Origin: a virus
Strand: one strand, 5' to 3'
Length of the DNA: 23,707 nt
Virus record (IMG/VR): IMGVR_UViG_3300042308_000130
Span: 1 to 23,707 of that record
Shown here in pieces: positions 1 to 21,427 of the stretch. Both the position numbers and the translations under genes were made by a program. The stretch's first letter is position 1. Each line of letters begins with the position of its first letter. The notes beneath the pieces are model-generated. The model did not search any database. It saw only the letters and a list, made by a program, of their open reading frames with translations, and was not told the DNA's origin.

Positions 1-3000
1 CATTATTTACAGACAGTCCGTTGAGTACACCGACCGATGTGATGTTGGTCTGTGCAGGAGTTAGAAGAGTTCCGGCGATTCCACCGGTTACACTCAAACC
101 GTTGGACTGAATGAATACTGGTCCTGCTGCGGATAAACCACCATTGGTGATGTTTACTCTCTCGGATGAAGTAAGTCCTGCTGTGCTTAGTGAAGTCAAT
201 GTACCCAAGCCAGTAATGTTCGTTTGACTTGGCGTGATCAAAGTTCCTGCGATTCCGCCAGTTACACTCAAGCCATTGGATTGGATGAATACTGGTCCTG
301 CTGCCGATAGACCACCATTGGTGATATTGATCCTCTGAGAGGAAGTGAGTCCTGCGGTAGACAAGGACACCAAGGAACCAACAGTCGTGATATTGGTCTG
401 TGCAGCGGTCAACAAAGTTCCAGCGATGCCACCAGTCACACTCAAGCCATTGGATTGGATGAAGACAGGACCAGAAGCAGACAGACCACCATTGGTAATG
501 TTGACTCTTTCAGACGAGGTAAGTCCTGCCGTAGACAAGGAAGTCAAAGTTCCGATTGAAGTGATGTTGGTCTGTGATGAAGTGACTAGAGTTCCAGCGA
601 TGCCACCAGTCACACTCAAGCCACCCGAGTCAACAAACAACCCACCAAAGATGTCTGCTGATCCTGTAACAACCATGGAACCCGTAACACTCAATCCACC
701 TGATTGAATTCTAGACCCACCAAAGATCGTTTCTCCTCCTGTTATACTTACTCCACCAGTAACGCTAAGACCATTGTTGACAGATAGACCGTTTAGTACA
801 CCAACCGAAGTGATGTTGGTCTGTGCAGCAGTTAGAAGAATACCTGCAATGCCACCAGTCACACTCAACCCATTGGACTGAATGAATACAGGACCAGCCG
901 CAGAGATACCGCCATTTGTGATATTGATTCTTTCGGACGAGGTAAGTCCTGCCGTTGACAAAGACACCAAGGAACCCACAGCCGTGATGTTGGTCTGTGA
1001 TGGCGTTACCAAGGTTCCCGCAATCCCGCCAGTCACACTCAAGCCACCCGATTGAATCCTTGATCCGCCAAAGATTGCTTCTCCGCCCGTTATGCTTGCC
1101 CCACCTGTGACACTCAAGCCACCAGAGTCAACAAATAGTCCACCGAAGATGTCGGCACCTCCGGTTACCACCATCGAACCTGTGACACTCAAGCCATCAG
1201 CAATCCTTGATGGTCCAAATTGAAGAATACCACCCGTAATTGAAATTCCACCAGTTACACTCAATCCATTGTTAACCGAAAGACCATTAAGTACACCGAC
1301 CGAAGTGATATTGGTCTGTGCAGCGGTCAACAGGGTTCCTGCGATGCCGCCAGTTACACTCAAGCCATTGGATTGGATGAATACTGGTCCTGCTGCCGAT
1401 AGACCACCATTGGTGATATTGATCCTCTGAGAGGAAGTGAGTCCTGCGGAAGCCAAGGAAGTCAAGGTTCCAACCGAAGTGATGTTGGTCTGTGCAGCAG
1501 TTAGAAGAGTTCCGGCAATGCCGCCAGTTACGCTCAAACCACCCGAGTCAACAAACAAACCACCAAAGATGTCCGCTGATCCCGTGACAACCATCGAACC
1601 CGTGACACTCAGGCCATTATTTACAGACAGTCCGTTGAGTACACCGACCGATGTGATGTTTGTTTGTGTCGCTGTCAACAAAGTTCCTGCGATTCCGCCA
1701 GTTACACTCAACCCGTTGGATTGGATGAATACTGGTCCGGCAGCAGACAAACCACCATTGGTGATATTGATTCTCTGTGAAGAAGTAAGTCCTGCCGTTG
1801 ACAAGGACACCAAGGAACCAACAGTCGTGATGTTGGTCTGGCTTGGAGTTACGATAGTTCCGGCAATTCCTCCCGTGACACTCAAGCCACCAGAACTTAT
1901 GTTTACTCCACCGGCAAATGTTGCACCCGTGGAGACATAGAGGTTTGAAGACGAAACACCGCTTGAGAAGGATTGATACCCTGTGAATGTCTGTGGCAGG
2001 AAGTTCCAGGCGACACCGGTAACACCACCTGTTACACCATTCACGGATCGCACATAATTGCTTGTCAGGCTTACTGCACCAAGAGCGGATACGACAAACT
2101 CATTGCCAAACGAGGCAACACCCGTAACGGTAGCGGATGCTAGTGGAAGCGCACCGGCAGCCGCTATGTTGAAATAGGTGGTTCCATCATTTGTGTATTG
2201 CCATGTACCGCTAGACTCGTTCCACCTAAGAATACGATTAGTAGCGGCTGGTCCACGATAAACTTCTATGCCTCCGCTGTCTGCTACAGTTGCGTTGGAA
2301 TTGAGGACGATGAAGTTGTCTTCGATCAGGACATTTTCACTAACGGTCGTGGTGATTCCACCACTCACCAACAAGTCTCCAAAGATCCTTACCGCACCAT
2401 TGAATGTTGCACCGGCAGCAATATTAAGGCTATTCCCAGAAAGACCCGCAGTAGTAGAGATCAGGCCCGAGGAATTGAGTGAAGTCAGGGTTCCCACGGA
2501 TGTGATATTGGGTTGTGCTGCTGTGAGCAAAGTTCCGGCAATGCCTCCCGTGACACTCAAGCCACCACTTTGTATCGTTCCTCCCCCAAACAGAGTAGAT
2601 CCGCCAGTCACACTCAAGCCACCCGTGACGCTCAGTCCACCACTTGAAATTTGAACATTTGTTGCCGTCAGGTTCGACAAGGTTCCAACTGATGTGATGT
2701 TGGTTTGTGCAGCGGTCAATAGTGTTCCCGCAATGCCACCAGTCACACTCAAGCCATTGGATTGGATGAATATTGGTCCTGCTGCCGATAGACCACCGTT
2801 GGTGATATTGATCCTCTGAGAGGAAGTGAGTCCTGCTGTGGACAAGGAAGTCAAGGTTCCAACCGAAGTGATGTTTGTCTGTACAGCAGTTACAAGAGTT
2901 CCGGCAATGCCTCCCGTGACACTCAAGCCACCACTTTGAATCCTTGAGCCACCAAAGAGGGTTTCACCACCAGTCACACTCAAGCCACCCGTGACACTTA

Positions 3001-4585
3001 GTCCACCACTTGAAATTTGAACATTCGTTGCCGTCAGGTTCGACAAGGTTCCAACTGATGTGATGTTGGTTTGTGCAGAAGTCAACAGGGTTCCTGCGAT
3101 TCCGCCAGTTACACTAAGTCCTCCACCACCAACACTAACTCCACCAGTTACGCTAATTCCACCCGTGACACTCAAACCATTGTTAACAGAAAGTCCGTTC
3201 AGAACACCAACGGATGTAATGTTGGTCTGTGATGGTGTGACTATTGTTCCTGCAATGCCGCCAGTAACACTCAAGCCACCGGAGTCAATGAATAGACCAC
3301 CAAAGATGTCTGCTGATCCCGTCACAACCAGAGAACCCGTGACGCTGAGTCCGTTGTTGACAGACAATCCGTTGAGTACACCAACCGATGTGATGTTGGT
3401 CTGTGCAGCGGTCAACAGGGTTCCTGCGATTCCACCAGTTACACTTAGGCCATTGGACTGAATGAAGACAGGACCAGAGGCAGAAAGTCCACCATTGGTG
3501 ATGTTGATTCTTTCGAACGAGGTAAGTCCTGCCGTACTGAAAGAAGATAGAGTTCCTATTGCAGTAATATTGGGTTGAGAAGCCGTAACTATTGTTCCCG
3601 CGATTCCGCCTGTTACGCTGAGCCCACCGCCAGAAACCTGAACATTGGCAGCAGTAAGCGCAGACAACGAACCAAGCAATGTTATGTTTGGCTGCGTCGA
3701 AGTCAGCAAAGTTCCCGTGATGCCGTTGCCAGAAATGCCGGAACCAAATGTCTGCAATCCGGTGAATGTCTGAGAAACATTGGTTCTTGCCACGGTTCCC
3801 GTGAGACTCACCGAACCAGTCACAGATACATCAAAGTCCGCTGCACGGAAAGAGGCAACACCGGTAACACTTGAGGTGGCAAGAGTTGCGGGAGTTGCAG
3901 CAGCCGCTATTGTTATCTGTTTGCCCGACTGAGTGATCGTGATGTTGGAACCGGATGTGATGGTTACCGCACCTGTGATTCCATTGACACCCGTGACCAT
4001 GTTTGGCGCATAGATGTTGGAGCCAAAGGTGGCACCATTGGTAACAAACAGGTTGCTTGCCGACAGACCGGCGTTTGCAGAGATCAGCCCCGATGCAGTA
4101 AGCGAGGAAAGGATTCCCACCAAGGTGATATTTGGTTGGGTTGCGGTCAGAATGCTTCCTGTGATTCCCCCAACAACGGTCAGACCGTTTAGAATTTCAG
4201 TAGTTCCACCAAGATTGTTGGTGATCGTAAAATTTCCCGAGAAGGTAATTCCGCCAGAACCACTTGCCCCAGCGACAAACATCAGCAAGTTTGCAGGATT
4301 GAATGATCCAGTTCCACCTCCACCGCCCACAGCCTGCCAAGAACCAGAGATGTAGGCACTTTCATATGTGCCGTTGTACCATCTGTCTCCTTCGATTGGG
4401 TAATCGGGAGCGGTAGCCCCGGTGAAGAACCTGTTGTTTATCGCCAGAACCGAGCCAGTCAAGGAACCAACATACAGACGGACATCCGTGGTGTTTATGG
4501 CAAGTTCACCGTGGGTCAGGCCAGTCGGTGCTGCCCCACCCGAAACACCACGCTTCAACTTTATGATGATATCTTCTGCTCCCAT
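1..4585 (-). CDS. Giant repeat-built tail fibre protein, C-terminus beyond window
   Basis: The reading frame stays open from the ATG at 4585 to the left edge, giving about 1528 codons with no stop, so the C-terminus is missing. The N-terminus (starting [13 protein letters not shown], then GELAINTTDVRLYVGS at about residues 25-40) resembles the start of many phage tail fibre proteins. A Gly-rich linker follows, then a long series of repeats built on a 58-residue unit. Recurring pieces are GGIAGTLLTAAQTNITSVG, NGGLSAAGPVFIQSNGL and ADIFGGLFVDSGGL. The Gly/Thr/Ser/Asn-rich beta-type repeats suggest an elongated fibre shaft; this is inference. The start overlaps the stop of the upstream collagen-like fibre gene as ATGA, so translation is probably coupled. 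It is the last visible gene of the four-gene fibre operon. The fibre role is likely; the receptor is unknown. Confidence 0.8.
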   Translation of the reverse strand, partial: MGAEDIIIKLKRGVSGGAAPTGLTHGELAINTTDVRLYVGSLTGSVLAINNRFFTGATAPDYPIEGDRWYNGTYESAYISGSWQAVGGGGGTGSFNPANLLMFVAGASGSGGITFSGNFTITNNLGGTTEILNGLTVVGGITGSILTATQPNITLVGILSSLTASGLISANAGLSASNLFVTNGATFGSNIYAPNMVTGVNGITGAVTITSGSNITITQSGKQITIAAAATPATLATSSVTGVASFRAADFDVSVTGSVSLTGTVARTNVSQTFTGLQTFGSGISGNGITGTLLTSTQPNITLLGSLSALTAANVQVSGGGLSVTGGIAGTIVTASQPNITAIGTLSSFSTAGLTSFERINITNGGLSASGPVFIQSNGLSVTGGIAGTLLTAAQTNITSVGVLNGLSVNNGLSVTGSLVVTGSADIFGGLFIDSGGLSVTGGIAGTIVTPSQTNITSVGVLNGLSVNNGLSVTGGISVTGGVSVGGGGLSVTGGIAGTLLTSAQTNITSVGTLSNLTATNVQISSGGLSVTGGLSVTGGETLFGGSRIQSGGLSVTGGIAGTLVTAVQTNITSVGTLTSLSTAGLTSSQRINITNGGLSAAGPIFIQSNGLSVTGGIAGTLLTAAQTNITSVGTLSNLTATNVQISSGGLSVTGGLSVTGGSTLFGGGTIQSGGLSVTGGIAGTLLTAAQPNITSVGTLTSLNSSGLISTTAGLSGNSLNIAAGATFNGAVRIFGDLLVSGGITTTVSENVLIEDNFIVLNSNATVADSGGIEVYRGPAATNRILRWNESSGTWQYTNDGTTYFNIAAAGALPLASATVTGVASFGNEFVVSALGAVSLTSNYVRSVNGVTGGVTGVAWNFLPQTFTGYQSFSSGVSSSNLYVSTGATFAGGVNISSGGLSVTGGIAGTIVTPSQTNITTVGSLVSLSTAGLTSSQRINITNGGLSAAGPVFIQSNGLSVTGGIAGTLLTATQTNITSVGVLNGLSVNNGLSVTGSMVVTGSADIFGGLFVDSGGLSVTGGIAGTLLTAAQTNITSVGTLTSLASAGLTSSQRINITNGGLSAAGPVFIQSNGLSVTGGIAGTLLTAAQTNITSVGVLNGLSVNNGLSVTGGISITGGILQFGPSRIADGLSVTGSMVVTGGADIFGGLFVDSGGLSVTGGASITGGEAIFGGSRIQSGGLSVTGGIAGTLVTPSQTNITAVGSLVSLSTAGLTSSERINITNGGISAAGPVFIQSNGLSVTGGIAGILLTAAQTNITSVGVLNGLSVNNGLSVTGGVSITGGETIFGGSRIQSGGLSVTGSMVVTGSADIFGGLFVDSGGLSVTGGIAGTLVTSSQTNITSIGTLTSLSTAGLTSSERVNITNGGLSASGPVFIQSNGLSVTGGIAGTLLTAAQTNITTVGSLVSLSTAGLTSSQRINITNGGLSAAGPVFIQSNGLSVTGGIAGTLITPSQTNITGLGTLTSLSTAGLTSSERVNITNGGLSAAGPVFIQSNGLSVTGGIAGTLLTPAQTNITSVGVLNGLSVNN
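39..1985 (-). repeat. 174-bp in-frame repeat array in the fibre gene
   Basis: The segment encoding NITSVG recurs with its plus-strand landmark (gtgatgttgg or close variants) at 39, 213, 387 and 561; 810 and 984; and 1305, 1479, 1653 and 1827. Inside each group the spacing is exactly 174 bp, or 58 codons. Further copies lie at 2502, 2694, 2868, 3060, 3216, 3390, 3564, 3681 and 4125, with spacings that are all multiples of 3. A 103-bp stretch at 255-357 is identical to 1347-1449, and 1-46 is identical to 1615-1660. The units therefore behave as shuffled cassettes inside one open frame, not as noncoding repeats. Confidence 0.85.
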
Positions 4586-6120
4586 CAGGCCAAGTCTCCG
4601 TGTACGACCCAAGTATCTATTGACCTATTTACAAGAGTCACGACCGACCATTGGCCGTTCAGAGAAAACATTGAATTTCTTGAATTCAGGGTAACACCGG
4701 CAGCCCCTGTCAATGATGTGTTCCCTGCCCCAGCCTGCATGACCATGATCTGAGTACCCGTGGGGAATGCAACATTGGAGTATGAGGGAATCTGCAATGT
4801 GTTGGCAGAACCATATACCATCTCTATGGTCTTGGCAGAATCACCAATGACAAGCGTATAGTCGGATGTAGCCTGCTGAGAGAATGTCAATGGTCCCAAG
4901 GTGTTTCCTGATGGTCCACGGAACGATGTGTTTATGGCATCGGGAATCACGGAAAGTTCTACCCATTGTCCTGTCACTTCGCCTGCATCCACAAGGTAGG
5001 TGTAGAGTTTCCCGTCAACAGAATTCAGCCATTCATCTCCAGATGTGGAACCAGTTGGTTCCATAGAACTGTAGGTAAATTTGTTGACTCCTGTTGCACC
5101 ATCGCCACCTATTGTCGTGATGCTTGTGTTGTAGTTGACCCATTGGCCTGTTCCTTCTCCCTCATCGACCAGCCAAGTATAAAGATTTCCATTGACTTCA
5201 TTGAGCCATTGATCTCCCATTTGAGGCGAAGATGGAGCAGTTGCACCATAGGTGAACGCTATTCTTCCTGTAGCACCCGTGGCACCCTGTGAGCCCGTTG
5301 CACCTTGCGGACCTGTTGCACCCTGTGGGCCTGTTGATCCTTGTGTACCCGTTGCACCCTGTGGGCCTGTTGGGCCTTGTGTACCCGTTGCACCCTGTGA
5401 GCCCGTTGCACCTTGCAGACCTGTTGGGCCTGTTGGGCCGGGAACAGTTGAATTTGCACCAGTTGCACCTTGCGGACCTGTTGCACCCTGTGGGCCAGTT
5501 GAACCCTTTTCTACAAATACATCCCAACCCACTAAAGAATCTGGTTGAGAGCCAGTAAGACCATTAGTTAAACAAATATAAGAATTGCCAATGAATGTAA
5601 CTACATCATTGAGATTATAAACAATCTCTGAACCACCGTAAGGGCCTCTAAAGTAAAAACTTTCACCCTGAATGCCTTGAGGGCCAATTTCTCCTTGAGG
5701 ACCTGTTGCACCCTGTGGGCCTGTTGGGCCTTGTGTACCCGTTGCACCCTGTGGGCCTGTTGGGCCTTGTGTACCCGTGGCACCCTGCGGACCCGTGGAA
5801 CCAGTAGCACCCTGCGGACCTGTGGCACCCACAGGACCAGTAGCACCTGTTGCTCCTGTGGCACCATTTGCGCCGCTTCCTGTTCCTCCACCGCCGCCTC
5901 CGCTAGACGCAATTGTCAGGGTCTGTCCCGACTTCGTGATGGTTACATTTGCACCAGCCGTGAGTGATACGCTGCCGGATATGCCGTTAATGTCCGAGAC
6001 ATAATCAACCGTAAGGGATGCGTTGTGTGTCTCCCATGCGGCTCCGTTCCATCGCCAAGCCTTGCCATTGGCAGCATAGACCTGGTTTAGGAAGGGATTC
6101 GACGGAAAGTCCAAGGGCAT
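4585..6120 (-). CDS. Collagen-like fibre protein with inserted sugar-binding-like module
   Basis: This 511-residue protein starts [15 protein letters not shown], with a WRWNGAAWE motif near residue 22 that is common at the N-terminus of phage fibre proteins. Two collagen-like arms of Gly-X-Y triplets, rich in GPQGAT, cover about residues 83-152 and 206-285. Between them, residues about 155-206 ([17 protein letters not shown] and a Trp near 199) resemble a carbohydrate-binding module of the CBM5/12 type. Next come two related segments (about 287-330 and 347-390), each with LVDxGExTGQWV. The C-terminal part (about 408-511: [30 protein letters not shown]) resembles a domain common at phage fibre ends. 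ATGA overlaps link it to the genes on both sides. Gly-X-Y triplets suggest a trimeric shaft. The binding role of the inserted module is inferred. Confidence 0.8.
5273..5505 (-). repeat. Collagen-coding DNA repeats, C-terminal arm
   Basis: This stretch consists of 9-bp and 36-bp in-frame repeats encoding GPQGATG/GTQGPTG triplets. Long units here, such as the plus-strand run ccctgtgggcctgttgggcc, also occur in the other collagen arm at about 5700-5870. The two arms could therefore recombine around the module between them. This is coding repeat, not a CRISPR array. Confidence 0.7.
5665..5872 (-). repeat. Collagen-coding DNA repeats, N-terminal arm
   Basis: In-frame Gly-X-Y coding repeats include two consecutive near-identical 36-bp units (about 5705-5776) that match units in the other arm at about 5345-5395. 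They flank the AT-rich insert at about 5503-5664. Confidence 0.7.
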
Positions 6121-7355
6121 CAGATGATCTCAAACCAAGAGAAGTCAGCGCATATCTTTGCACCATCATAGATTGGTGTCATGGTGAACACGATCACATC
6201 GCTAACTCCAAGTTGGGTTCTTCCGATTTGGAAATTGAAGTCATTGACATCCGATATTACCAAAGATCCGCTGCTGCTGATGTATCCGCCTATGATGTCG
6301 GTTCCACCAGTTATGCTTGCCATTGTGTTGTTGTAGTCAACATTTCCGTTGTAGTGGGTGACCCATGAACCGCCGCTTATCGATGGGTTGAACAGTATGC
6401 GATACTGTGCCGTGTTGGGCTTGTTGTTGCTGGTTTCCTGAATCACGGCATTGATGTTGGAAGGAACCACAACGCTGTCGAGCCGATTGGAATTGAGTCG
6501 AAGTGCGATGATCGGATACTGCACCCCCGCCGTGGTCAGGGTCTTTAGGGTTGCTCCGTTATGGGTGACATTGTGTCTGCGGCTGAATCCTTCATATCCA
6601 CCCTCGCTTATCACGGATGAGCATATCTGCTTCATCGTGCTGCTTCCGGTCTGCCCCTTGGTATTCATCAGTTCATACCGAATCGGCAATATCGCCGTTG
6701 TCATGTAGGTCGTTGGATTCAGGTTGTCGTTGTGGAATGTATGGGCAACGATTGGCCGTCCATCTACAATGAACCCTGTCCTCACATCACCGACACCGAG
6801 CCATTCAATGTCCATCCACATTATGTTTCCCTTGGTTGGATCAAGAGTCCTTCCCGACTCTCCGTTTCCATCGAACTTGTCTCCATTCCAATTTGACTGA
6901 TTGACCGTGATTGTGTTGCCAAGTGACGCACTAGCCAAGCACATGGACATCGTGAGCCCGTCTTGCTGCAAGTAGATGCCATTGAAGGGAACGGATGCGG
7001 TCGCCCCTCCCGTGATGCCGAAATACCCTACCCGCTGCAACAGACCATCCTTGGGAGTGTTCATTGCAAAGGTGTTGAGGACGAGCAGGGACTTGCCGGG
7101 TTGGTAGGGGAACACCCTCTTGGTTTCCCGTGTGACCTTGCTTCCTGCCGTTGTTCCCACGGTCATGTTGATGGCGCTTTCAAGTACTGCGAATGTGGCA
7201 GTACCTCCGGTGGCACCGAATGTGTCCCACTTGTCGTTCATCTGATAGCGATTCTGGCTGTCGAAAAGCGTGAAAGGTGCAGAGACTTTCAATCGGTTGA
7301 AGGCATCTACTGCATTTCCCTTGAATTGCACTTGATCGTTGAAAAGGTAACTCAT
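6120..7355 (-). CDS. Conserved phage virion-type structural protein
   Basis: This 411-residue protein starts [26 protein letters not shown] chose the ATG at 7355 over the in-frame ATG at 7367 because GGAG lies six bases before it and it forms an ATGA overlap with the upstream collagen gene's stop. The central stretch ([46 protein letters not shown]) resembles a structural protein family I recall from T4-like cyanophages. I see no enzyme motif, signal peptide or membrane segment. It sits between two collagen-like fibre genes and overlaps both by ATGA, so it is probably made in step with them and may form a tail or fibre adaptor; that role is inference. Confidence 0.7.
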
Positions 7356-8806
7356 ACTATTCTCCACCCATTGTTGTATATGAAATGCAGTCCTGCGTTA
7401 TTTAGATTGATGGTTGCGGACTCTTGGTTGTCAACCGTGTCTGCCGCCGTTGCACCGACTATGGTGATGTATCGATAAGGCTCTCCTGCCCGACCCGACT
7501 CATCCTTGACGATGATTTCCCTTCCCGTGAACGGCAGGGAAGGAAGAGTTATCGTCACGGGTCCGGTTGCGTTGACACCGATGTAGTGATCCCTACCCGT
7601 GGCTAGGTATGTGCTTCCCGTTACCGATGTCACGGCAACCACCATTGCAGGATTCACCGTGGGCTGCACCCATTGCTGCGTGTTGCCGTCATTGATGTAG
7701 ATGTACTCCTGTCCATCATCCGAATCCATCCATCGTGAACCGGCGGTGAATCCCGATGTCGGGGGATCGGGCTGATAGAAGAAGTTCGTGCCCGAAGAGG
7801 ATATGGTTATGCTGTTCGTCGCAGGGTTGGTGATCAGTTGTACATTGTTGCCTGCATCGAACCGAAGAGTCTCTGCCTGATACTGGATGGCAGTAAGACC
7901 GGGCTGTCCTGCGACTTCAACGAACTTGAATGCTTCACCCATTCCGCCGCCGGGATTGCCCAGTACGGTGGTTCCGCGATTCAGGTTGGTAAGGTCTACC
8001 TTGAGTGTCTTTGACTTGGGATCGTACTTGAGTGGATAGATTGCATGAAGAACGCCAGAGTCTCCCGTGGCACCCTTCTCACCTTGTGGACCGGCAGGAC
8101 CAACATCACCCTTCTCGCCCTTTTCTCCACGGTCACCCTTTTGTCCCTTGGAACCACGCTTGCCCTGCGGACCAACTGGACCAACAGCACCCTTCTCTCC
8201 TTTGGCTCCCGCGACTCCGGCGATTCCCTGAAGACCCGGCTCACCCTTGTCTCCCTTATCGCCCTTATCTCCTTTGTCTCCCTTGGGGCCAGCGATACCC
8301 CGTGGGCCTACATCGCCCTTCTCTCCCTTGTCCCCCTTGGGACCAGCAACCCCCTTCAGTCCTTGCGGCCCTGCTTCTCCTCTGTCTCCCTTGTCACCTT
8401 TTTCGCCACGAAGACCTTGGGGTCCAGGTGTGCCTTGGGCACCCGCTTTCCCGTCACTTCCTTTTTCCCCACGGGGGCCGACCTCGCCTTGCGGACCTCT
8501 TTCGCCCTGCGGACCCTTTTCGCCACGCTCGCCCTTGTCGCCCTTCTCGCCACGGTCACCTCTTTCGCCCCTTGGGCCTGTGATTCCACGCAAACCACGA
8601 AGACCCCGTTCGCCGGTGTCTCCCTTGTCACCCTTTTCGCCCTTCGGGCCGGGTGAACCCCTCACTACTCGGATTTTTTGCTTGGATGTTGCAGACGAGA
8701 CTACATCCGGCTCAGGAGCCTCCATGAACTCCTGAAATTCCTTGTACAGTTCTTCCAACCCTTCGGGATCGGGTTCCTTGCCTATGAAGTCTCGGAATTT
8801 GGCCAT
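7352..8806 (-). CDS. Collagen-like fibre protein with uninterrupted charged Gly-X-Y domain
   Basis: This 484-residue protein starts MAKFRDFIGKEPD. Residues 50-250 form 67 Gly-X-Y triplets without a single interruption, rich in KGD, KGE and RGE triplets of the kind known to stabilise collagen triple helices. The rest (about 252-484) contains a segment with WMDSDDGQEYIYINDG and a C-terminal domain (YIGVNATGPVTITLPS, REIIVKDESG, ending NNGWRIV) that resembles the tips of phage fibre or receptor-binding proteins. A late-type promoter motif ends only a few bases before the ATG, and I see no Shine-Dalgarno site. The gene is first in the fibre operon and couples to the next gene by ATGA. A trimeric fibre is likely; the target is unknown. 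Confidence 0.8.
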   Translation of the reverse strand: MAKFRDFIGKEPDPEGLEELYKEFQEFMEAPEPDVVSSATSKQKIRVVRGSPGPKGEKGDKGDTGERGLRGLRGITGPRGERGDRGEKGDKGERGEKGPQGERGPQGEVGPRGEKGSDGKAGAQGTPGPQGLRGEKGDKGDRGEAGPQGLKGVAGPKGDKGEKGDVGPRGIAGPKGDKGDKGDKGDKGEPGLQGIAGVAGAKGEKGAVGPVGPQGKRGSKGQKGDRGEKGEKGDVGPAGPQGEKGATGDSGVLHAIYPLKYDPKSKTLKVDLTNLNRGTTVLGNPGGGMGEAFKFVEVAGQPGLTAIQYQAETLRFDAGNNVQLITNPATNSITISSSGTNFFYQPDPPTSGFTAGSRWMDSDDGQEYIYINDGNTQQWVQPTVNPAMVVAVTSVTGSTYLATGRDHYIGVNATGPVTITLPSLPFTGREIIVKDESGRAGEPYRYITIVGATAADTVDNQESATINLNNAGLHFIYNNGWRIV

Positions 8807-15158: not shown

Positions 15159-16076
15159 TTACTTGATCCCTGCGTCCTTTGCAACCTTGCTGAAGCCGCC
15201 ACCGTAGGTATAGCCCTTGGGGTCTTTGTTGTACTGCTTCTGCATTGCTGCGAGGATCTTGTTGAACTTGGTGTTGTCGGCGCTTGGATAATTGTTGCGA
15301 ATCCAAGAGCGAAGCATCATGTCGGATGCAGCCTCATCAACGACTTCTTCCTTCTTTAAAGTCTTACCGGCTCCGAGATCATTCTTAACATCGTACTTGC
15401 CCTTAATATTTACACCCTTTAGGTTCTTCAGATAATAACCAATAAGGTGCTTATAGTTAGGGTGCGTACCGTTGGCAAATGATCCGAAATTGTTCTTTTT
15501 CATCCATGCATTGATTCCATCTGCATGTTTGGCAAGTGTGTCATATGCTTTCTTAGTATTAGCCGAGGTGTAGGTTTTGTCGTTTGTTCCAAACACCTCT
15601 CTTACCCAGAGCATAAGTCCAGCCCGTGTTGTTGCACTCATTCCTGGATATTCGAAGAAATAACGGCCATCTTTTGTTTGTGTGACCTTAGCCTTGCTTT
15701 CGGTAAGAGTTTCTTCTTCGGTTTCGGTCACTACTGCCTCATCAACGACTTCTTCCTTCTTGGTTTCCTCGGCAACTTCCTTCTTAGCATCAACCTGAAC
15801 GGGCTTGGAAGCCTCTTCCTCGTAGCGGTTGATCATTTCCGTGGTCGGAGTGCATCCGCACTTCTTCAACCCCTCTGCGAGGTTGCGGCGAAGGATGTCG
15901 CGGCGGCGTTCTGCCGACAGATAGCCCTCGTCAAGGAAGGCATGACCCAGATCGATGGAAGCCTGCTTTGCGGCCTCCATGATGGCGGTCGGGAGTTCGG
16001 TCTTCGAAATAGTTTCGCCACGAAGAACCTTCAGAATGTCATTTTGCAAATTGGCAGAGATTTTGTTACTGTGCAT
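15159..16076 (-). CDS. Mosaic phage protein with duplicated KKEEVVDEA linkers
   Basis: This 305-residue protein is not a family I recognise. The N-terminal domain (about 1-90) is helical, with AFLDEGYLSAERRRDILRRN and the Cys pair KKCGC. An acidic linker containing KKEEVVDEA follows, then a domain rich in aromatic and polar residues (about 128-230: DGRYFFEYPGMSATTRAGL, NGTHPNYKHLIGYYLKNL). A second KKEEVVDEA and a C-terminal helical segment (MMLRSWIRNNYPSADNTKF, TYGGGFSKVAKDAG) complete it. The two linkers come from an exact 26-bp DNA repeat 405 bp apart, and the DNA between is visibly more AT-rich. LTE|S at about 120 and VDE|A in the linkers resemble prohead-protease sites. A late-type promoter precedes it, and GAGG lies eight bases before ATG. 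Confidence 0.7.
   Translation of the reverse strand: MHSNKISANLQNDILKVLRGETISKTELPTAIMEAAKQASIDLGHAFLDEGYLSAERRRDILRRNLAEGLKKCGCTPTTEMINRYEEEASKPVQVDAKKEVAEETKKEEVVDEAVVTETEEETLTESKAKVTQTKDGRYFFEYPGMSATTRAGLMLWVREVFGTNDKTYTSANTKKAYDTLAKHADGINAWMKKNNFGSFANGTHPNYKHLIGYYLKNLKGVNIKGKYDVKNDLGAGKTLKKEEVVDEAASDMMLRSWIRNNYPSADNTKFNKILAAMQKQYNKDPKGYTYGGGFSKVAKDAGIK
15331..15356 (-). repeat. 26-bp direct repeat, copy 1
   Basis: The plus-strand sequence gcctcatcaacgacttcttc plus cttctt is identical to 15736-15761. The spacing is 405 bp, exactly 135 codons, and both copies encode KKEEVVDEA in the same frame. Confidence 0.85.
15736..15761 (-). repeat. 26-bp direct repeat, copy 2
   Basis: This is identical to 15331-15356. 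Together they bracket an AT-richer in-frame segment that encodes the middle domain of the 15159-16076 protein. Confidence 0.85.
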
Positions 16077-16120: not shown

Positions 16121-16387
16121 TTAACGCTTGCTGCCCTTGTACTTTTTCCAAATGTCTGCATCGGCGGTATGACGAGTCTTGCCGCCGACGATGAAACTGT
16201 TGACTCTTGCCAGACCCCATTGCTCGGGGCCAGCCCCCGGCCTATGGCCTCCCTTCCATGCGACCACTCCACGGTCATAGACTTGCTTGAGGAAGCGGTA
16301 AGGGATGCCTGAAGCCTTGGACTTCTTCTCCAAGGATGTATGTGCGGCTGGCTTGTCTTCGGAGATGTAGTTTTTGAATCTTTGCAT
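16121..16387 (-). CDS. DUF5824-like small phage protein
   Basis: This 88-residue protein from the ATG at 16387 starts MQRFKNYISEDKPAAH. A longer in-frame start at 16414 would reach back into the upstream gene and is less likely. The core has KKSKASGIPYRFLKQVYDRG, VVAWKGGHRPGAGPEQWGLA and RVNSFI. This matches my memory of the DUF5824 family, found in many phages and sometimes fused to larger multidomain proteins; its biochemical role is not known to me. The N-terminal MQRFKNYISE resembles the T4 capsid-targeting leader MKTYQEFIAE. Only five bases separate it from the stop of the large fusion gene, so it is part of the same transcript. Confidence 0.75.
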   Translation of the reverse strand: MQRFKNYISEDKPAAHTSLEKKSKASGIPYRFLKQVYDRGVVAWKGGHRPGAGPEQWGLARVNSFIVGGKTRHTADADIWKKYKGSKR

Positions 16388-16392
16388 TTGAA

Positions 16393-19300
16393 TTATTCCG
16401 GGTTGTGGCCCCAAATCTTCAGAGCCAGAAGTTTCCTTGTTGGGCGACCCTTTTCGTCACGCATCGGTCCTTGGGCTCCCTTCATGCGTGTGATGAAATT
16501 GACCTGTCTTCGTGCCCATTCCCAATCGTTGGGTGTCCAATCCTTCTTCTTGGTCTGCAACATGCGTACAATGGCACGGGCCGAGTCTCGTCCGGACTTG
16601 ATCTTTCCGCCCTTGGCTCCTGCTTTGGAAGCCTCCTTGCGGGAAAGTCCTGCTTCTTCGCCCTCATCTGAATCGATGAAGGACTCCAACTCCTTTGGAC
16701 CCATGTTGACCAACTTTTCCCATTCCTTGTAAAGGGCATCCTGCTCTTCCTTGGCCTTGTCCTCGGTGTAGTACTTCTGCCCCGGAGTCATCTTGGAATA
16801 CGCCTTGACGATTTCGTTGGTTCCGATTTCAAGAACTTCCTGCAACTTCTTCTTAATGATTCTTGCCGTGGACTCTGAATCCGTACTGTTGTACATCATC
16901 CACTCGAAATCCTCGTCCAAGGTTGTCTTGATGTTGGAATATGGTTCGTACATCTCGTTCTTGACGACTTCAATAAAGACCGTGCAGATGTCTCTTTCTT
17001 CCTTCGTCTGCAACTTGGATTGGTATTCCCTGACTCGTTCGACCTTTTCCGACATGGGGATGGAGAGTGAATCGATCTTCATCAATTGATCGATTGCCTC
17101 TTCAACCTTCTTCCCAAACTTCTTGGCAAACAATTGAGTGTACTTGGACTTTCTCTTGGTTTCCTTTGGATCACCCGGCAACTTCTTCCATGCACGGGGA
17201 TCGCTGTCGGGAATGTCCTTGCGCTTGTCAAATTGTGCCTTTCGCTTTGCCTTCTGCGTCTTGCTCAGGCCAGCGACATACTTCTTCGGCAAGTCGGCCT
17301 TCGTGTCTCTTGCAGGAGACACGGCCTTTCCGGTCTTGGTTGTGTACTTGGATTCCTCCACGGATTCCTTGCCAAGTTCTCCCTTTTCCTTCTTGCCGCT
17401 GTCACGCTTAATCATTCCACGGGCAGCAAGACGAGCAGCACCTGTCGCACCTACGATCTTCATAGCCTGCGAATAGGTCACATTTGTGCTTCCATGCTTT
17501 TCCCTGATCTTTGAAATCAGACCGTCAAGGTGACTCTTCATTTCCTTGCCTTGCATGGCAAGTTTCTCCTCATCGATCTTCGTCTTCGAAGCCGACATGT
17601 CCTTGGGATCGACCATGACACCGGCCTGAACGAGGAAACGAAGACCAAGAAGAACCTTGTAGTTCATGTGGCTTCTGTCGGCAAGACTGAACTTGACATT
17701 CTTGAATTCCCTGCCATTAAATTCAACATCAAACAGGACAGTCGGACGGACTGCCTCTTCCTTGGAAGAACCATGGCGAAGACGAATACGGCTCTGTATG
17801 GGCTTGGTCATCTCCTTCTCGCCATTGAACTTGAAGGTGACTGTGTGGTTCTTCTCGTTGATCTTAATGTCCGTGGCATGGATTGAGTTGTAACCGCTGT
17901 TGCCCGTATCCACCTTGCCGTAGAATTCCTCGCCTGCGACCTTTATTGGTTCGACCACCGCGACGGAACTGAACAACTTCCAATTCTGCTTGTTGGACAG
18001 GTGCTTGACGAGTTCTTCGACAAGTTCATCGCCATCAACATCCTTTGTCGGCTTTCCGTCCTCATACAGAGTGTAGACATTTCCGCTTCCGGGGCTCGCA
18101 TTCATCTCTATGATGTAAGGCTTTCCACCAGCGACCACATGATCGACTCCGACATAGTAGCACTTGGAAACCCTCGCCACGGTTTCCACCAACTTGATCT
18201 CGTCCTCAGATAGTTCGAATGAACCGCCCTTTGAACCACGGGCAATATTCGTTCTGAAGTCTCCCTTGGCCTTGTCTCGCTTGGCAGATGCGAAAATCTT
18301 GCCGTTGAGACAGATGCTTCGGACATCATGGGTGAAGCCGGGAATGAATTCCTGAAGAATGATCTCGGCACCGTACTTCCACAGGCTTTGCAGCACGGAC
18401 ACAAGTGACTTTTCGCTTTCGATGATCGATACGCCAATTCCCTCCGCTCCCGTCAGGGTTTTGACGATGACGGGGAACTTCCCTCCGATCTGCTTCAGGG
18501 CATCGGGAATGGATTCAGCATCTGCGACGAATGCAGTCTTTGGGTGAGGAATGTTGTGTCGCTTTAGCGTGATGGCAGTCTGCAACTTGTTTGCACACAG
18601 ATCCATGCCGCCTCGTTCGTTCACCATGAATACGCCGTTGTTCTGCAACAACATGAGGAGGGCAATGCCGACTTCGCTGTTCATCGTGCCACCACGGACA
18701 ACGCACAGGGTCTGGTTCGGGATGATGGTGACATCATTTCCTTCGCCATCGAAGTTCTCTATGGTGATCTTGTCGGGACTTGCCTTGGCGATGTTGATGG
18801 TGGCGGTCTTGATGCGGATCGGATGGAAGTTCACCTTGTACTTCTTGCAGGCTTCCTCCATCTTTCCGATTGTGCTTTTCTCGCTCTCTTCCATGCTTGA
18901 AGTGAGAGCGATGATCGTCACGGGTGTCTTGGTTTCCTCTACGATCACCTCTTCCTTTAGGCTCATTCCCTTGCGGACATCATTGTACATCTGCTTTGCT
19001 ACCGTCTTGGAAACTCCTGAAGGAATGCCCGTCATGAAGGTCTTGATGTCCTTATCGAATGCGGCCTTACGCATCTTGCTTGCAGACATGCCGACCACTC
19101 CCTCAGAATCGGGATCACGCTCTCCTGCGCTGATTATCTCGTACTTGCTGAAGTTGTACCCGTCCTTCTGTGTCGGGGTCTTCTTGATGTACTTCTTGAC
19201 AAGTTGGTATTCCGTCATGTGATCGGCACCGGTCACAACATAAACCTGTGTGTAGCCTTGGTCGCTCAACTCCTGCATACAGGCATATACACCCGAACCC

Positions 19301-19578
19301 TTTGCCGAAGGCTTGGGCATCTGCTTGAACTTGTAGCCGGGGAAGAATTGCTTGAGATACTTGGCTTTCTGCGCCGCAGTCAGGGGATTCTTCTTAGGAT
19401 CGTTGGAATAACTGTAGTAGATGACATGAGCATCGGCACCCTTTGCAGACTGCACTTCCTTGACCTTCTTGAGAAGAAGTTCATGCCCTGTGGTGGGGGG
19501 ATTGAACCTCCCAACAGCCACTACTACGGACTTGCCCTTTGGCTTGAAGTTCTTTGTTGCTTCCGAGAAGGTTTTCAT
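16393..19578 (-). CDS. Nucleotidylyltransferase, ATP-grasp ligase and retropepsin-like protease fusion
   Basis: Positions count from the ATG at 19578 (MKTFSEATKNFK, 1061 residues), chosen because it forms an ATGA overlap with the upstream stop; an in-frame start at 19665 lies inside that gene. Residues about 17-200 are a cytidylyltransferase-type domain with GRFNPPTTGH (23-32) and GMSASKMRK (163-171). About 216-531 is a RimK-like ATP-grasp ligase with VKTLTGAEGIGVS (372-384), QEFIPGFTHDVR (409-420) and the metal site EMNASPGSG (491-499). About 541-658 is a retropepsin-like domain of the putative ATP-dependent zinc protease type, with DTGNS (557-561), HATDI and LADRSHMNYKVLLGLRFL (632-649). 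A basic segment (DLPKKYVAGLSKTQKAKRK, about 761-779) resembles a DUF5872-type phage module. A helical region and the C-terminal KSGRDSARA to ALKIWGHNPE domain (about 994-1061) follow. Domain calls are by eye; the substrate is unknown. Confidence 0.82.
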   Translation of the reverse strand: MKTFSEATKNFKPKGKSVVVAVGRFNPPTTGHELLLKKVKEVQSAKGADAHVIYYSYSNDPKKNPLTAAQKAKYLKQFFPGYKFKQMPKPSAKGSGVYACMQELSDQGYTQVYVVTGADHMTEYQLVKKYIKKTPTQKDGYNFSKYEIISAGERDPDSEGVVGMSASKMRKAAFDKDIKTFMTGIPSGVSKTVAKQMYNDVRKGMSLKEEVIVEETKTPVTIIALTSSMEESEKSTIGKMEEACKKYKVNFHPIRIKTATINIAKASPDKITIENFDGEGNDVTIIPNQTLCVVRGGTMNSEVGIALLMLLQNNGVFMVNERGGMDLCANKLQTAITLKRHNIPHPKTAFVADAESIPDALKQIGGKFPVIVKTLTGAEGIGVSIIESEKSLVSVLQSLWKYGAEIILQEFIPGFTHDVRSICLNGKIFASAKRDKAKGDFRTNIARGSKGGSFELSEDEIKLVETVARVSKCYYVGVDHVVAGGKPYIIEMNASPGSGNVYTLYEDGKPTKDVDGDELVEELVKHLSNKQNWKLFSSVAVVEPIKVAGEEFYGKVDTGNSGYNSIHATDIKINEKNHTVTFKFNGEKEMTKPIQSRIRLRHGSSKEEAVRPTVLFDVEFNGREFKNVKFSLADRSHMNYKVLLGLRFLVQAGVMVDPKDMSASKTKIDEEKLAMQGKEMKSHLDGLISKIREKHGSTNVTYSQAMKIVGATGAARLAARGMIKRDSGKKEKGELGKESVEESKYTTKTGKAVSPARDTKADLPKKYVAGLSKTQKAKRKAQFDKRKDIPDSDPRAWKKLPGDPKETKRKSKYTQLFAKKFGKKVEEAIDQLMKIDSLSIPMSEKVERVREYQSKLQTKEERDICTVFIEVVKNEMYEPYSNIKTTLDEDFEWMMYNSTDSESTARIIKKKLQEVLEIGTNEIVKAYSKMTPGQKYYTEDKAKEEQDALYKEWEKLVNMGPKELESFIDSDEGEEAGLSRKEASKAGAKGGKIKSGRDSARAIVRMLQTKKKDWTPNDWEWARRQVNFITRMKGAQGPMRDEKGRPTRKLLALKIWGHNPE

Positions 19579-20822
19579 TTCTTCCAATCCTTGGTTATGT
19601 TCATGTTTGCGTTTGCGAACACCAATCTGTCTATCAACTTGATGGTTGAACAAGTCTTTCCACACACGGCAACGAATCCTTCGGGATTGGTTGCCTTCAA
19701 GCCGGATGCGGTTGGCAAGTATGTTCCTATCGTCTTTACTTCAGACAACTTGCTGATTACCACCATCTTTGCTTCCGACACCAACGAGTGAACCTTGAAC
19801 AACTGATCAAACTGCCCTGCGTATGCATCGATGAAGGCAATTGCCTTCTTCTTGTCGTTTTGTTTCTCTGCTATCTTTGTCTGTGTCTTCAACTTCGCGA
19901 TTGCTGCATTGTATTTACCTTCGATGAACACCTTCAACTTGGCGGAATCGTATTTTGAAATTCCTGCCCGAACCCCCGAATTGATGAAGGGCATCAGTTC
20001 TGCGTAGATGTCCTTTTCGTGGGACTTCTTCACAATCTTGAGAAATGAGTTGACTTGGGTTGCCGATGCCGCAATCAATCCAATAAGGTCAACTATCTGC
20101 TTGGCGTTGCTTGCCGTGAGGAAGGTTGATCCTGATGGCGGGGACGGCAAAGTGGCACCCGTGAACCATACGGCAGTTGTCTGCTTGAACCCTTGCAGCG
20201 AGGAAAGGGGAGACTTGGACAGATCCTTGAGTTCCTTGCCCGTGCCCGTGTACTGCGTATGGAATACGATTCCCATCTTTGCAGCCTTTATCTTCACTCC
20301 CATTGGGCTGTCAGCAGGAACGGCATACATGATCGTGTTTGGTCGGAAAGTCACCATAGATGTACCGTCAATTGTGGCGATCTTCTTGTTGTCTGTGAAG
20401 AGCAAGTCCCCATGATAGATTCCCTTTGCAGGCAACACGGAGGGAAGGTTCTTCAGGCAAACTGAAAGTTTGGATGCAAGTTCCGCCTTGTCTCCATACT
20501 CCCGGTTGATGTCTGCCTGTGTATAGCAAATCTTGGGATTGGCAGAAAGGGTTGCTCCCTTGAGTGCCACGAAGAACTTCTTAGTTGCCGGGTGGATTCC
20601 TGCCACTATTGCCGGTGCCCCATCCCACTTCGTGGTGATGACCATCTTTGCCGTAGGGGTGGCTGAAGCCAAGGACTTCACCAGATTCTTAAGGATTTCG
20701 GTGGCTTTCTTTACCCCTCCATCCAAAAAGATCAAGTCCTCAAGGTGATCAAGATGCTGCGACTGCACCGCCTCCATGACGGGTTGCCGCTCTTCGATCA
20801 GGCTTGAGAAAGTCCTTATCAT
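19575..20822 (-). CDS. Ligase-fold nucleotidyltransferase-like phage protein (DUF6267-like)
   Basis: The likely start is the ATG at 20822 (MIRTFSSLIEER, 415 residues). In-frame ATGs at 20828 and 20846 also exist, but the late promoter motif overlaps or follows those. TTKWDGAPAIVAG contains KWDG (K65), which fits the KxDG nucleotide-binding motif I of DNA/RNA ligases and capping enzymes. Possible later motifs are GIYHGDLLFT (about 134-143), KMGIVFHTQYTG (about 182-193), EGFVAVCG (about 381-388) and TIKLIDR (about 393-399). I recall this pattern in phage proteins labelled DUF6267. The protein could join or adenylate nucleic acid, but activity is unproven. ATGA overlap couples it to the large fusion gene. 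The N-terminus resembles capsid-targeting leaders. Confidence 0.72.
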   Translation of the reverse strand: MIRTFSSLIEERQPVMEAVQSQHLDHLEDLIFLDGGVKKATEILKNLVKSLASATPTAKMVITTKWDGAPAIVAGIHPATKKFFVALKGATLSANPKICYTQADINREYGDKAELASKLSVCLKNLPSVLPAKGIYHGDLLFTDNKKIATIDGTSMVTFRPNTIMYAVPADSPMGVKIKAAKMGIVFHTQYTGTGKELKDLSKSPLSSLQGFKQTTAVWFTGATLPSPPSGSTFLTASNAKQIVDLIGLIAASATQVNSFLKIVKKSHEKDIYAELMPFINSGVRAGISKYDSAKLKVFIEGKYNAAIAKLKTQTKIAEKQNDKKKAIAFIDAYAGQFDQLFKVHSLVSEAKMVVISKLSEVKTIGTYLPTASGLKATNPEGFVAVCGKTCSTIKLIDRLVFANANMNITKDWKK

Positions 20823-21347: not shown

Positions 21348-21353
21348 GTCAAG

Positions 21354-21427
21354 TAGGGCGATCAGGATTCGAACCTGCGCCAGAGAGGTATAAACTCTCC
21401 TGGGCCAACCAAAGACCCCCTCGCCCC
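21354..21427 (-). tRNA. tRNA with UAU anticodon, probably tRNA-Ile
   Basis: The minus strand folds as a cloverleaf: a 7-bp acceptor stem GGGGCGA/TCGCCCT with one G-U pair, then discriminator A; D-stem GGGT/GCCC with GG in the loop; anticodon stem GAGAG/CTCTC with loop TTTATAC, giving anticodon UAU for AUA codons; and T-loop TTCGAAT on a stem with one G-A mismatch. Position 8 is G instead of the usual U, and there is an extra base between the D-arm and the anticodon stem. CCA is not encoded. It sits between two genes and probably is co-transcribed with the zinc-ribbon gene. Confidence 0.75.

Follow-up and report, generated by a model that had tools for sequence, protein, structure and literature searches.

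The window analysed here is the whole 23.7-kb virus record IMGVR_UViG_3300042308_000130, and six 60-base probes taken from it map to the 177-kb contig G001, all with the same offset. On its minus strand it encodes one long protein, P0001, in which a nucleotidylyltransferase, an ATP-grasp ligase and a retropepsin-like protease are joined. Going by its sequences, the family of this protein is most simply read as cargo of the phage head. The parts of the protein are as follows.

16393..19578, minus strand: whole open reading frame (ORF) of P0001, 1061 residues plus stop (translation)
19531..19578, minus strand: residues 1-16, MKTFSEATKNFKPKGK, site of the family's capsid-targeting-like N-terminus; this copy fits neither of the two patterns used below
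18964..19530, minus strand: residues 17-205, nucleotidylyltransferase, NMNAT/cytidylyltransferase-like, with TxGH and SASKMR motifs (PHROG 3041/395; weak Pfam; Foldseek)
18922..18963, minus strand: residues 206-219, acidic linker with LKE and IVE, putative prohead-protease sites
17977..18921, minus strand: residues 220-534, RimK-type ATP-grasp ligase (Pfam, profiles, model)
17599..17976, minus strand: residues 535-660, retropepsin of the RimB/RloA kind, with DTGNS and VLLGLRFL (Pfam, profiles)
16834..17598, minus strand: residues 661-915, variable middle; a DUF5824-like segment at 764-831 is below the Pfam cut-off
16396..16833, minus strand: residues 916-1061, conserved C-terminal module; DUF3140 above and DUF6321 just below the cut-off (Pfam)

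Reading Frame and Family

An earlier, sequence-only reading of this DNA reported three sets of enzyme motifs in one frame, and the translation, a single frame without internal stops, bears out both the motifs and their order: GRFNPPTTGH at residues 23-32, EMNASPGSG at 491-499, DTGNS at 557-561 and LADRSHMNYKVLLGLRFL at 632-649. With its ATG the frame overlaps the 3' end of the upstream gene (19575). An in-frame extension of 29 more codons to a GTG at 19665 is possible, but the homologs at L023 and L031 start at an identical MKTFSEA. The full-length frame recurs with 100% identity in four further IMG/VR loci (L002-L005), L006 is 100% identical across residues 1-586, and the remaining listed IMG/VR loci have best-segment identities of 46-64%. 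These intact copies, identical and divergent, rule out a frameshift or assembly artefact.

Scanning viral contigs gave 84 stretches; 80 of them, amounting to 79 loci, were kept, and together with three annotated phage loci and the window itself they yielded 83 matching ORFs. The IMG/VR loci, the window's included, hold 61 full-length ORFs (more than 900 residues, both ends closed), and the 22 below 85% identity serve as representatives, which are mutually related, so that counts from them are not independent. The first ~660 and the last ~146 residues are conserved in the family and the middle is variable. Among 50,697 phage records there were 524 matches, none with a place covering 80% of the protein, and in 55 of the 60 that were listed the match is confined to the nucleotidylyltransferase. 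With the ligase-retropepsin unit as query, 29 phage records match and three cover the unit (Mosig and two Yersinia phages). The fusion had been called unusual, which is true of cultured phages but not of IMG/VR, where it forms a conserved family. The polyprotein family is one of T4-like phages, known here from metagenomes only. A viral contig scan with a YerA41 query found no relative, and PADLOC assigned P0001 to no family. In the accessible text of the open-licence literature neither the fusion nor a capsid-targeting motif of cyanophages was found; most subscription-journal papers lie outside that scope.

The Enzyme Domains

The enzyme domains of the window protein are real. Pfam RimK matches residues 330-498 (E 6.4e-31, 107.9 bits against a cut-off of 21). 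On the NCBIfam model TIGR00768 for the RimK family, P0001 scores 139.8 bits, just under the cut-off of 143.4, and its Mosig relative passes with 173.8 bits. A profile of the ligase-retropepsin unit matches solved RimK at E 8.5e-38 and the Thermus entry 3vpd, which is titled LysX and has the table name S6 modification protein, at E 1.1e-20. Structure prediction, suggested with the first reading as a check, did not refute that reading and found an ATP-grasp fold: a model of residues 217-662, from an alignment with 13 Mosig-type relatives added (predicted local distance difference test, pLDDT, 82.1), aligns with RimK at Z 27.4 over 288 residues and 2.8-3.0 A. ArgX follows at 26.5, which is tied within 1, then LysX at 25.6 and glutathione synthetase at 21.3. 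The full-length AlphaFold model of P0001 (46 sequences) has a mean pLDDT of 59.9 and a predicted template modelling score (pTM) of 0.32, and its Foldseek hits are weak alone.

The protease is recognised by Pfam Zn_protease PF05618 at residues 550-660 (E 5.7e-10, 39.7 against 27 bits). By profile it matches the solved PF05618-type structure 9g58 (E 3.6e-10 and 9.6e-9) and also 2pma. The fold lists were filled by the ATP-grasp domain, and support for the aspartic protease comes from the profile match to 9g58. Together with the PHROG cytidyltransferase match, the two Pfam assignments confirm three enzyme domains in one chain, with a RimK-like ligase beside a retropepsin. In archaea (L289, L295) a candidate ligase-retropepsin fusion was rejected, as the two domains are separate ORFs there. 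The key residues are also kept: T29, G31 and H32, K331, K373, E410, E491 and N493, and D557, T558 and G559 do not vary in any of the 46 aligned proteins, and from knowledge of these families we take them to be catalytic or ATP-binding.

For the first domain, Pfam CTP_transf_like gives a weak match on residues 20-78 (E 0.0013, 19.4 bits, under the cut-off of 21), and the PHROG 3041 cytidyltransferase profile covers residues 1-212 (whole-protein E 3.9e-57). Foldseek points to nicotinate nucleotide adenylyltransferase at E 2.9e-5, from the low-confidence full-length model, and a profile of the domain had no match at E 0.01 among solved structures (PDB). The nucleotidylyltransferase superfamily is marked by (H/T)xGH and a second, basic signature. 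Both are present: R170 is invariant along with T29, G31 and H32, and M164 and S167 are found in at least 90% of the 46. The proposal that this domain activates the substrate of the ligase is not supported, since the listed phage records mostly match this domain only and since in L287, a 3.6-kb contig from a Saprospiraceae bin, it has a gene of its own. The order in L287 is a DUF6267-like end (by eye), a ligase-retropepsin ORF, and beside it a nucleotidylyltransferase starting MNKTYQQFLKE, a strict match to the N-terminal pattern described below. As the domain mostly occurs apart, a common destination accounts for the fusion no less well than a common reaction.

One could also consider a metabolic or DNA-modifying enzyme, in which the nucleotidylyltransferase forms a nucleotide-linked intermediate, the ATP-grasp domain puts an amino acid onto a small molecule or base, and the role of the retropepsin is just to stabilise or regulate the ligase. 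Enzymes of the MptN, LysX and CofF type act on small molecules or carriers, and their profiles match too, below their cut-offs. YerA41, reported with modified DNA, has a ligase-retropepsin pair, and RimB is described as stimulating RimK apart from cleavage (PMC11957791). Even so, RimK is the best match by Z (ArgX being tied within 1) and clearly the best by profile E-value, the retropepsin DTG is kept throughout the alignment, and the separate life of the nucleotidylyltransferase argues against a joint pathway; we consider this explanation quite improbable.

A Capsid-Targeting-Like N-Terminus

In phage T4, the internal proteins ipII and ipIII start with MKTYQEFIAEA. The first ten residues of IPIII are sufficient for head entry; within this capsid-targeting sequence (CTS), residues 4 and 7 weigh most in targeting and 8 and 10 in processing, and the prohead protease gp21 cleaves after L/I-x-E (PMC9026906). 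The N-termini of the family resemble those of T4, for example MKNFTRHLTEAPKK and MMERFATHITEAKK. Neither these N-termini nor the linkers with protease sites had been noticed in the sequence-only reading.

The strict pattern consists of a start, one to four residues, F/Y, two residues, one of FYHWLIRM, L/I, x and E. It was written after the T4 record, some G001 starts and gp154 of cyanophage S-CREM2 had been seen; S-CREM2 gp6 and gp14 came to light only through the scan, and the S-SCSM1 NMNAT was already known when that phage was scanned. The strict pattern is found in 10 of the 22 representatives, and the strict or a loose form in 17 of 22 and in 47 of the 61 full-length ORFs. As a control, 3,724 internal M/V/L positions gave 8 strict and 81 loose matches. 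Among the best 80 of 221 Mosig-type ligase-retropepsins, with each start-like codon of the first 80 residues taken as a possible beginning, 79 match, and the sole miss (L232) is cut off at its start. Thirteen aligned relatives of this type share 28-31% identity with the window's ligase-retropepsin unit. The pattern is also present in the Melnitz-3 RimK and in five of the seven nucleotidylyltransferases examined in annotated phages.

Putative Cleavage Sites and a Glutamate Run

Candidate sites for a gp21-type protease were counted over the 22 representatives and compared with the numbers expected from composition-preserving shuffles. [LI]xEA occurs 16 times at the N-terminus (0.28 expected), 12 times in the first linker (0.61) and 23 times in the middle (5.8). 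Toward the C-terminus there are 5 in residues 869-925 (1.6 expected) and 1 in residues 926-1061 (2.6), and there are none in the ATP-grasp domain (6.2) or the retropepsin (0.6). The wider [LI]xE[AGSV] gives 16 at the N-terminus (0.65), 14 in the first linker (2.1), 34 in the middle (17.8), 23 in residues 869-925 (6.7), 5 in residues 926-1061 (8.6), none in the retropepsin (5.3) and 7 in the nucleotidylyltransferase (4.6). The first linker reads approximately xLKEE(Y/F)[VIL]xEA; a script finds [LI]xE[AGSEQ] there in 20 of the 22, and the other two were seen by eye.

Directly behind the retropepsin, 14 of the 22 representatives and 32 of the 61 ORFs carry a run of six or more glutamates. The run leads directly into [LI]xE in 14 of 14, and in 4 of these the site is [LI]xEA. 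Among the other stop-to-stop frames of at least 200 residues at the same loci, 0 of 896 have such a run.

Published Virion Proteomes

A pattern of this kind can be compared with proteins detected in virions. In S-CREM2, it falls at 4 of 3,095 start-like codons, three of which are annotated starts: the gp6 S-adenosylmethionine (SAM) hydrolase, the gp14 APH/ChoK-like kinase and the gp154 cytidylyltransferase. All three are in the S-CREM2 virion proteome of 52 proteins, where they are the three entries classed as "regulatory" (PMC10665884). In S-SCSM1, the pattern occurs at 7 of 2,710 codons, and the one annotated start among them is that of the NMNAT, labelled a virion protein (PMC9602691). In T4 (55-168.9 kb), it occurs at 5 of 1,345 codons, with ipII, ipIII and I-TevIII as the annotated starts. 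The two S-CREM2 genes that came from the pattern scan are these.

L172:3837-5081, minus strand: S-CREM2 gp6, SAM hydrolase with the motif
L172:10579-12846, minus strand: S-CREM2 gp14, kinase with the motif

The N-terminal motif is a possible explanation for the detection of gp6 and gp14 in S-CREM2 virions.

Genome Context

G001 encodes both a gp21-type prohead protease and the capsid protein gp23, which has QYLKEAAP at the place of FLTEAEIG in T4 gp23. When 13 family records were searched, the same 3 held both genes and 10 held neither; several are possibly fragments. The genes on either side of P0001 can both be read with N-termini of the same kind.

19575..20822, minus strand: upstream gene, DUF6267 protein with KWDGAPA; strict CTS-like N-terminus MIRTFSSLIEERQ from this ATG (earlier starts exist)
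16121..16387, minus strand: downstream gene, DUF5824 protein; strict CTS-like N-terminus MQRFKNYISEDK from this ATG

A Proposed Packaged and Injected Polyprotein

We read the protein as a virion-packaged, injected enzyme polyprotein with a write-and-erase pair of the RimK/RimB kind, comparable to T4 Alt, and give this reading an even chance of being right. In the family, the N-terminus would act as a T4-type CTS that takes the chain into the prohead core, a role for which mass spectrometry (MS) of N-terminal-domain homologs offers support. The gp21-type prohead protease of the same genome would remove the N-terminal peptide and, as the placement of the sites suggests, cut the acidic [LI]xE linkers. 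This would free the nucleotidylyltransferase, the ligase-retropepsin and the C-terminal modules within the head, and the modules would enter the host with the DNA, like T4 Alt and IPI. From what is known of their families, the RimK-like domain may add, and the retropepsin trim, glutamate-type residues on a host protein. The target would most likely be a protein of the ribosome or of translation more generally, as with RimK/RimB, and would be modified from the first minute of infection. The nucleotidylyltransferase may raise levels of nicotinamide adenine dinucleotide (NAD), as cyanophage authors proposed for its homologs.

Of course, a number of observations weigh against this reading, beginning with the window's own copy. 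Its N-terminus, MKTFSEATKNF, fits neither the strict nor the loose pattern, and the same is true of 4 other representatives; it has no [LI]xEA, the sites in its first linker being LKE/E and IVE/E; and it is without the poly-Glu linker of its relatives. MKTFSEATKNF resembles MKTFKEF of T4 ipI, and the targeting motif has drifted in this member. Because its own copy is without the motif, its packaging is argued from relatives and flanking genes. The nucleotidylyltransferases of HTVC008M and Melnitz-1, the stand-alone RimK proteins of S-RIM8, S-RIM12 and S-RIM32, and YerA41 gp066 are also without the motif. As for the sites, 7 [LI]xEA are found at one nucleotidylyltransferase position where 1.5 are expected, and the ATP-grasp domain holds 5 [LI]xE[AGSV] (26.5 expected).

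The comparison with virions adds to these points. The sensitivity of the motif is low: it is missing from 25 of the 28 proteins of the S-CREM2 virion that fall outside the structural class, and T4 packages ipI and Alt, which do not carry it. The T4 match at I-TevIII is probably a false hit; we know of no head role for this protein. Virion MS covers homologs of the nucleotidylyltransferase only, and the packaging and cutting of the fusion proteins are predictions. For S-CREM1 virions (14 proteins), no NMNAT is reported in the accessible text, and the S-CREM2 and S-SCSM1 authors caution about carry-over from lysates (PMC10665884, PMC9602691).

A rival reading is an ordinary intracellular enzyme fusion that is never packaged, its N-terminal motif an inherited leader or chance and its acidic [LI]xE stretches flexible linkers. 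The window's copy has no signal, the three S-RIM proteins mean that a phage RimK need not be packaged, and L/I and E are frequent in acidic linkers by composition. The site counts, however, rise above shuffles that preserve composition, the motif persists in 79 of 80 distant relatives, and it stands on nucleotidylyltransferase homologs that were detected in virions. We regard a protein that is never packaged as unlikely, though a serious contender.

The chemistry assigned to the packaged polyprotein is a separate matter. The sequence-only reading proposed a write-and-erase pair, and this is plausible to the extent that RimB removes the glutamates that RimK adds; against it, the retropepsin is nearer to RloA3 than to RimB. 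Judged by NCBIfam scores, it is not RimB proper: RloA3 is the nearest curated model at 36.6 bits (cut-off 210), ahead of RimB at 27.8 (cut-off 200), and both scores are far below cut-off. A specificity for poly-Glu would for this reason be deduced only from the Glu run and from the pairing with a RimK-type ligase. In addition, a Desulfotalea RimBK did not glutamylate the RpsF tested with it (PMC11957791). A more specific version would have the head-packaged polyprotein, once cut and injected, write and erase poly-glutamate on the host ribosome or another target at time zero, with the run of six to eight glutamates as a substrate of the retropepsin (self-release) or as a tethered product mimic governing the ligase. 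It is held lower because the nearest model of the retropepsin is RloA3, and we think it doubtful.

Relation to Known Systems

The closest cellular parallel is the RimK/RimB system. RimB, itself a retropepsin, takes glutamates off RpsF, cuts internal poly-Glu and also stimulates RimK, and RimBK hybrids occur in bacteria; these have the same two kinds of enzyme in one chain, with the DTG and ATP-grasp residues kept (PMC11957791). RimB precedes RimK in RimBK, whereas the ligase precedes the retropepsin in the window protein. The latter is also viral and has a fused nucleotidylyltransferase and further modules, and its relatives have the capsid-targeting-like N-terminus and an encoded poly-Glu run.

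Among phages, the T4 internal proteins IPI-IPIII and Alt are the model. The relatives of P0001 share the N-terminal peptide type of ipII and ipIII and would share the L/I-x-E processing by gp21; T4 internal proteins include an enzyme or inhibitor ejected with the DNA, and the CTS has been proposed in review as a T4-like loading route for varied proteins, with CTS-like sequences in T-even relatives (PMC9026906, PMC9958956). The T4 cargo proteins are not multi-enzyme chains, whereas the family protein would be a polyprotein with several internal sites. The S-CREM2 cytidylyltransferase and S-SCSM1 NMNAT have the homologous first domain, the strict motif and a place in virions by MS (PMC10665884, PMC9602691), but they are not fused to a ligase and retropepsin. 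The "putative glutathione synthetase" of Pelagibacter phage Mosig and gp066 of Yersinia phage YerA41 have the ligase-retropepsin pair in the same order, at 27-29% identity, without the nucleotidylyltransferase or C-terminal modules. The Mosig family has the targeting motif; YerA41 gp066, without it, is labelled "structural protein" in its record. R2K-family ATP-grasp peptide ligases of jumbo phages have already been proposed to modify host proteins; they are another ATP-grasp clade, set apart by a description that, in its accessible text, mentions no retropepsin, packaging signal or polyprotein (PMC7824862, PMC4431377).

The finding turns a three-enzyme fusion into a testable claim on where and when it acts. 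If true, this family of T4-like phages injects machinery for protein modification that parallels T4 Alt by another chemistry, and uses a polyprotein layout for head cargo. In two cyanophage proteomes, the motif picks out enzymes whose authors, in the accessible text, could not separate cargo from contamination. The N-terminal signal may allow some injected effectors of T4-like phages to be predicted simply from sequence.

Other Genes in the Window and G001

The motif KxDG belongs to covalent nucleotidyltransferases and ligases, and the KWDGAPA of the upstream protein (19575-20822) resembles it. DUF6267-like proteins adjoin a nucleotidylyltransferase in Melnitz-1 and, by eye, in L287. At 15159-16076, the window encodes a 305-residue protein with no family above cut-off and with acidic linkers, KKEEVVDEA and TEEETLTESKAK, like those of the fusion; it is possibly a second processed head protein. 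In G001, further genes with strict CTS-like starts (L094:14069-14596, minus strand; L095:12612-14298, plus strand) are predicted cargo: one protein that resembles 5'-nucleotidases (NT5C, E 6e-5, slightly below cut-off) and three in a row without a Pfam match.

A transfer RNA for isoleucine lies at 21353-21427 on the minus strand, and its anticodon, TAT, would read ATA codons. Two repeat proteins are encoded at 7352-8806 and 2-4612 (minus strand), a collagen-like protein with GxKGxx repeats and a very long ORF of GLSVTGG repeats. The GLSVTGG ORF is part of an 8.5-kb ORF in G001, and both repeat proteins are probably fibre proteins.

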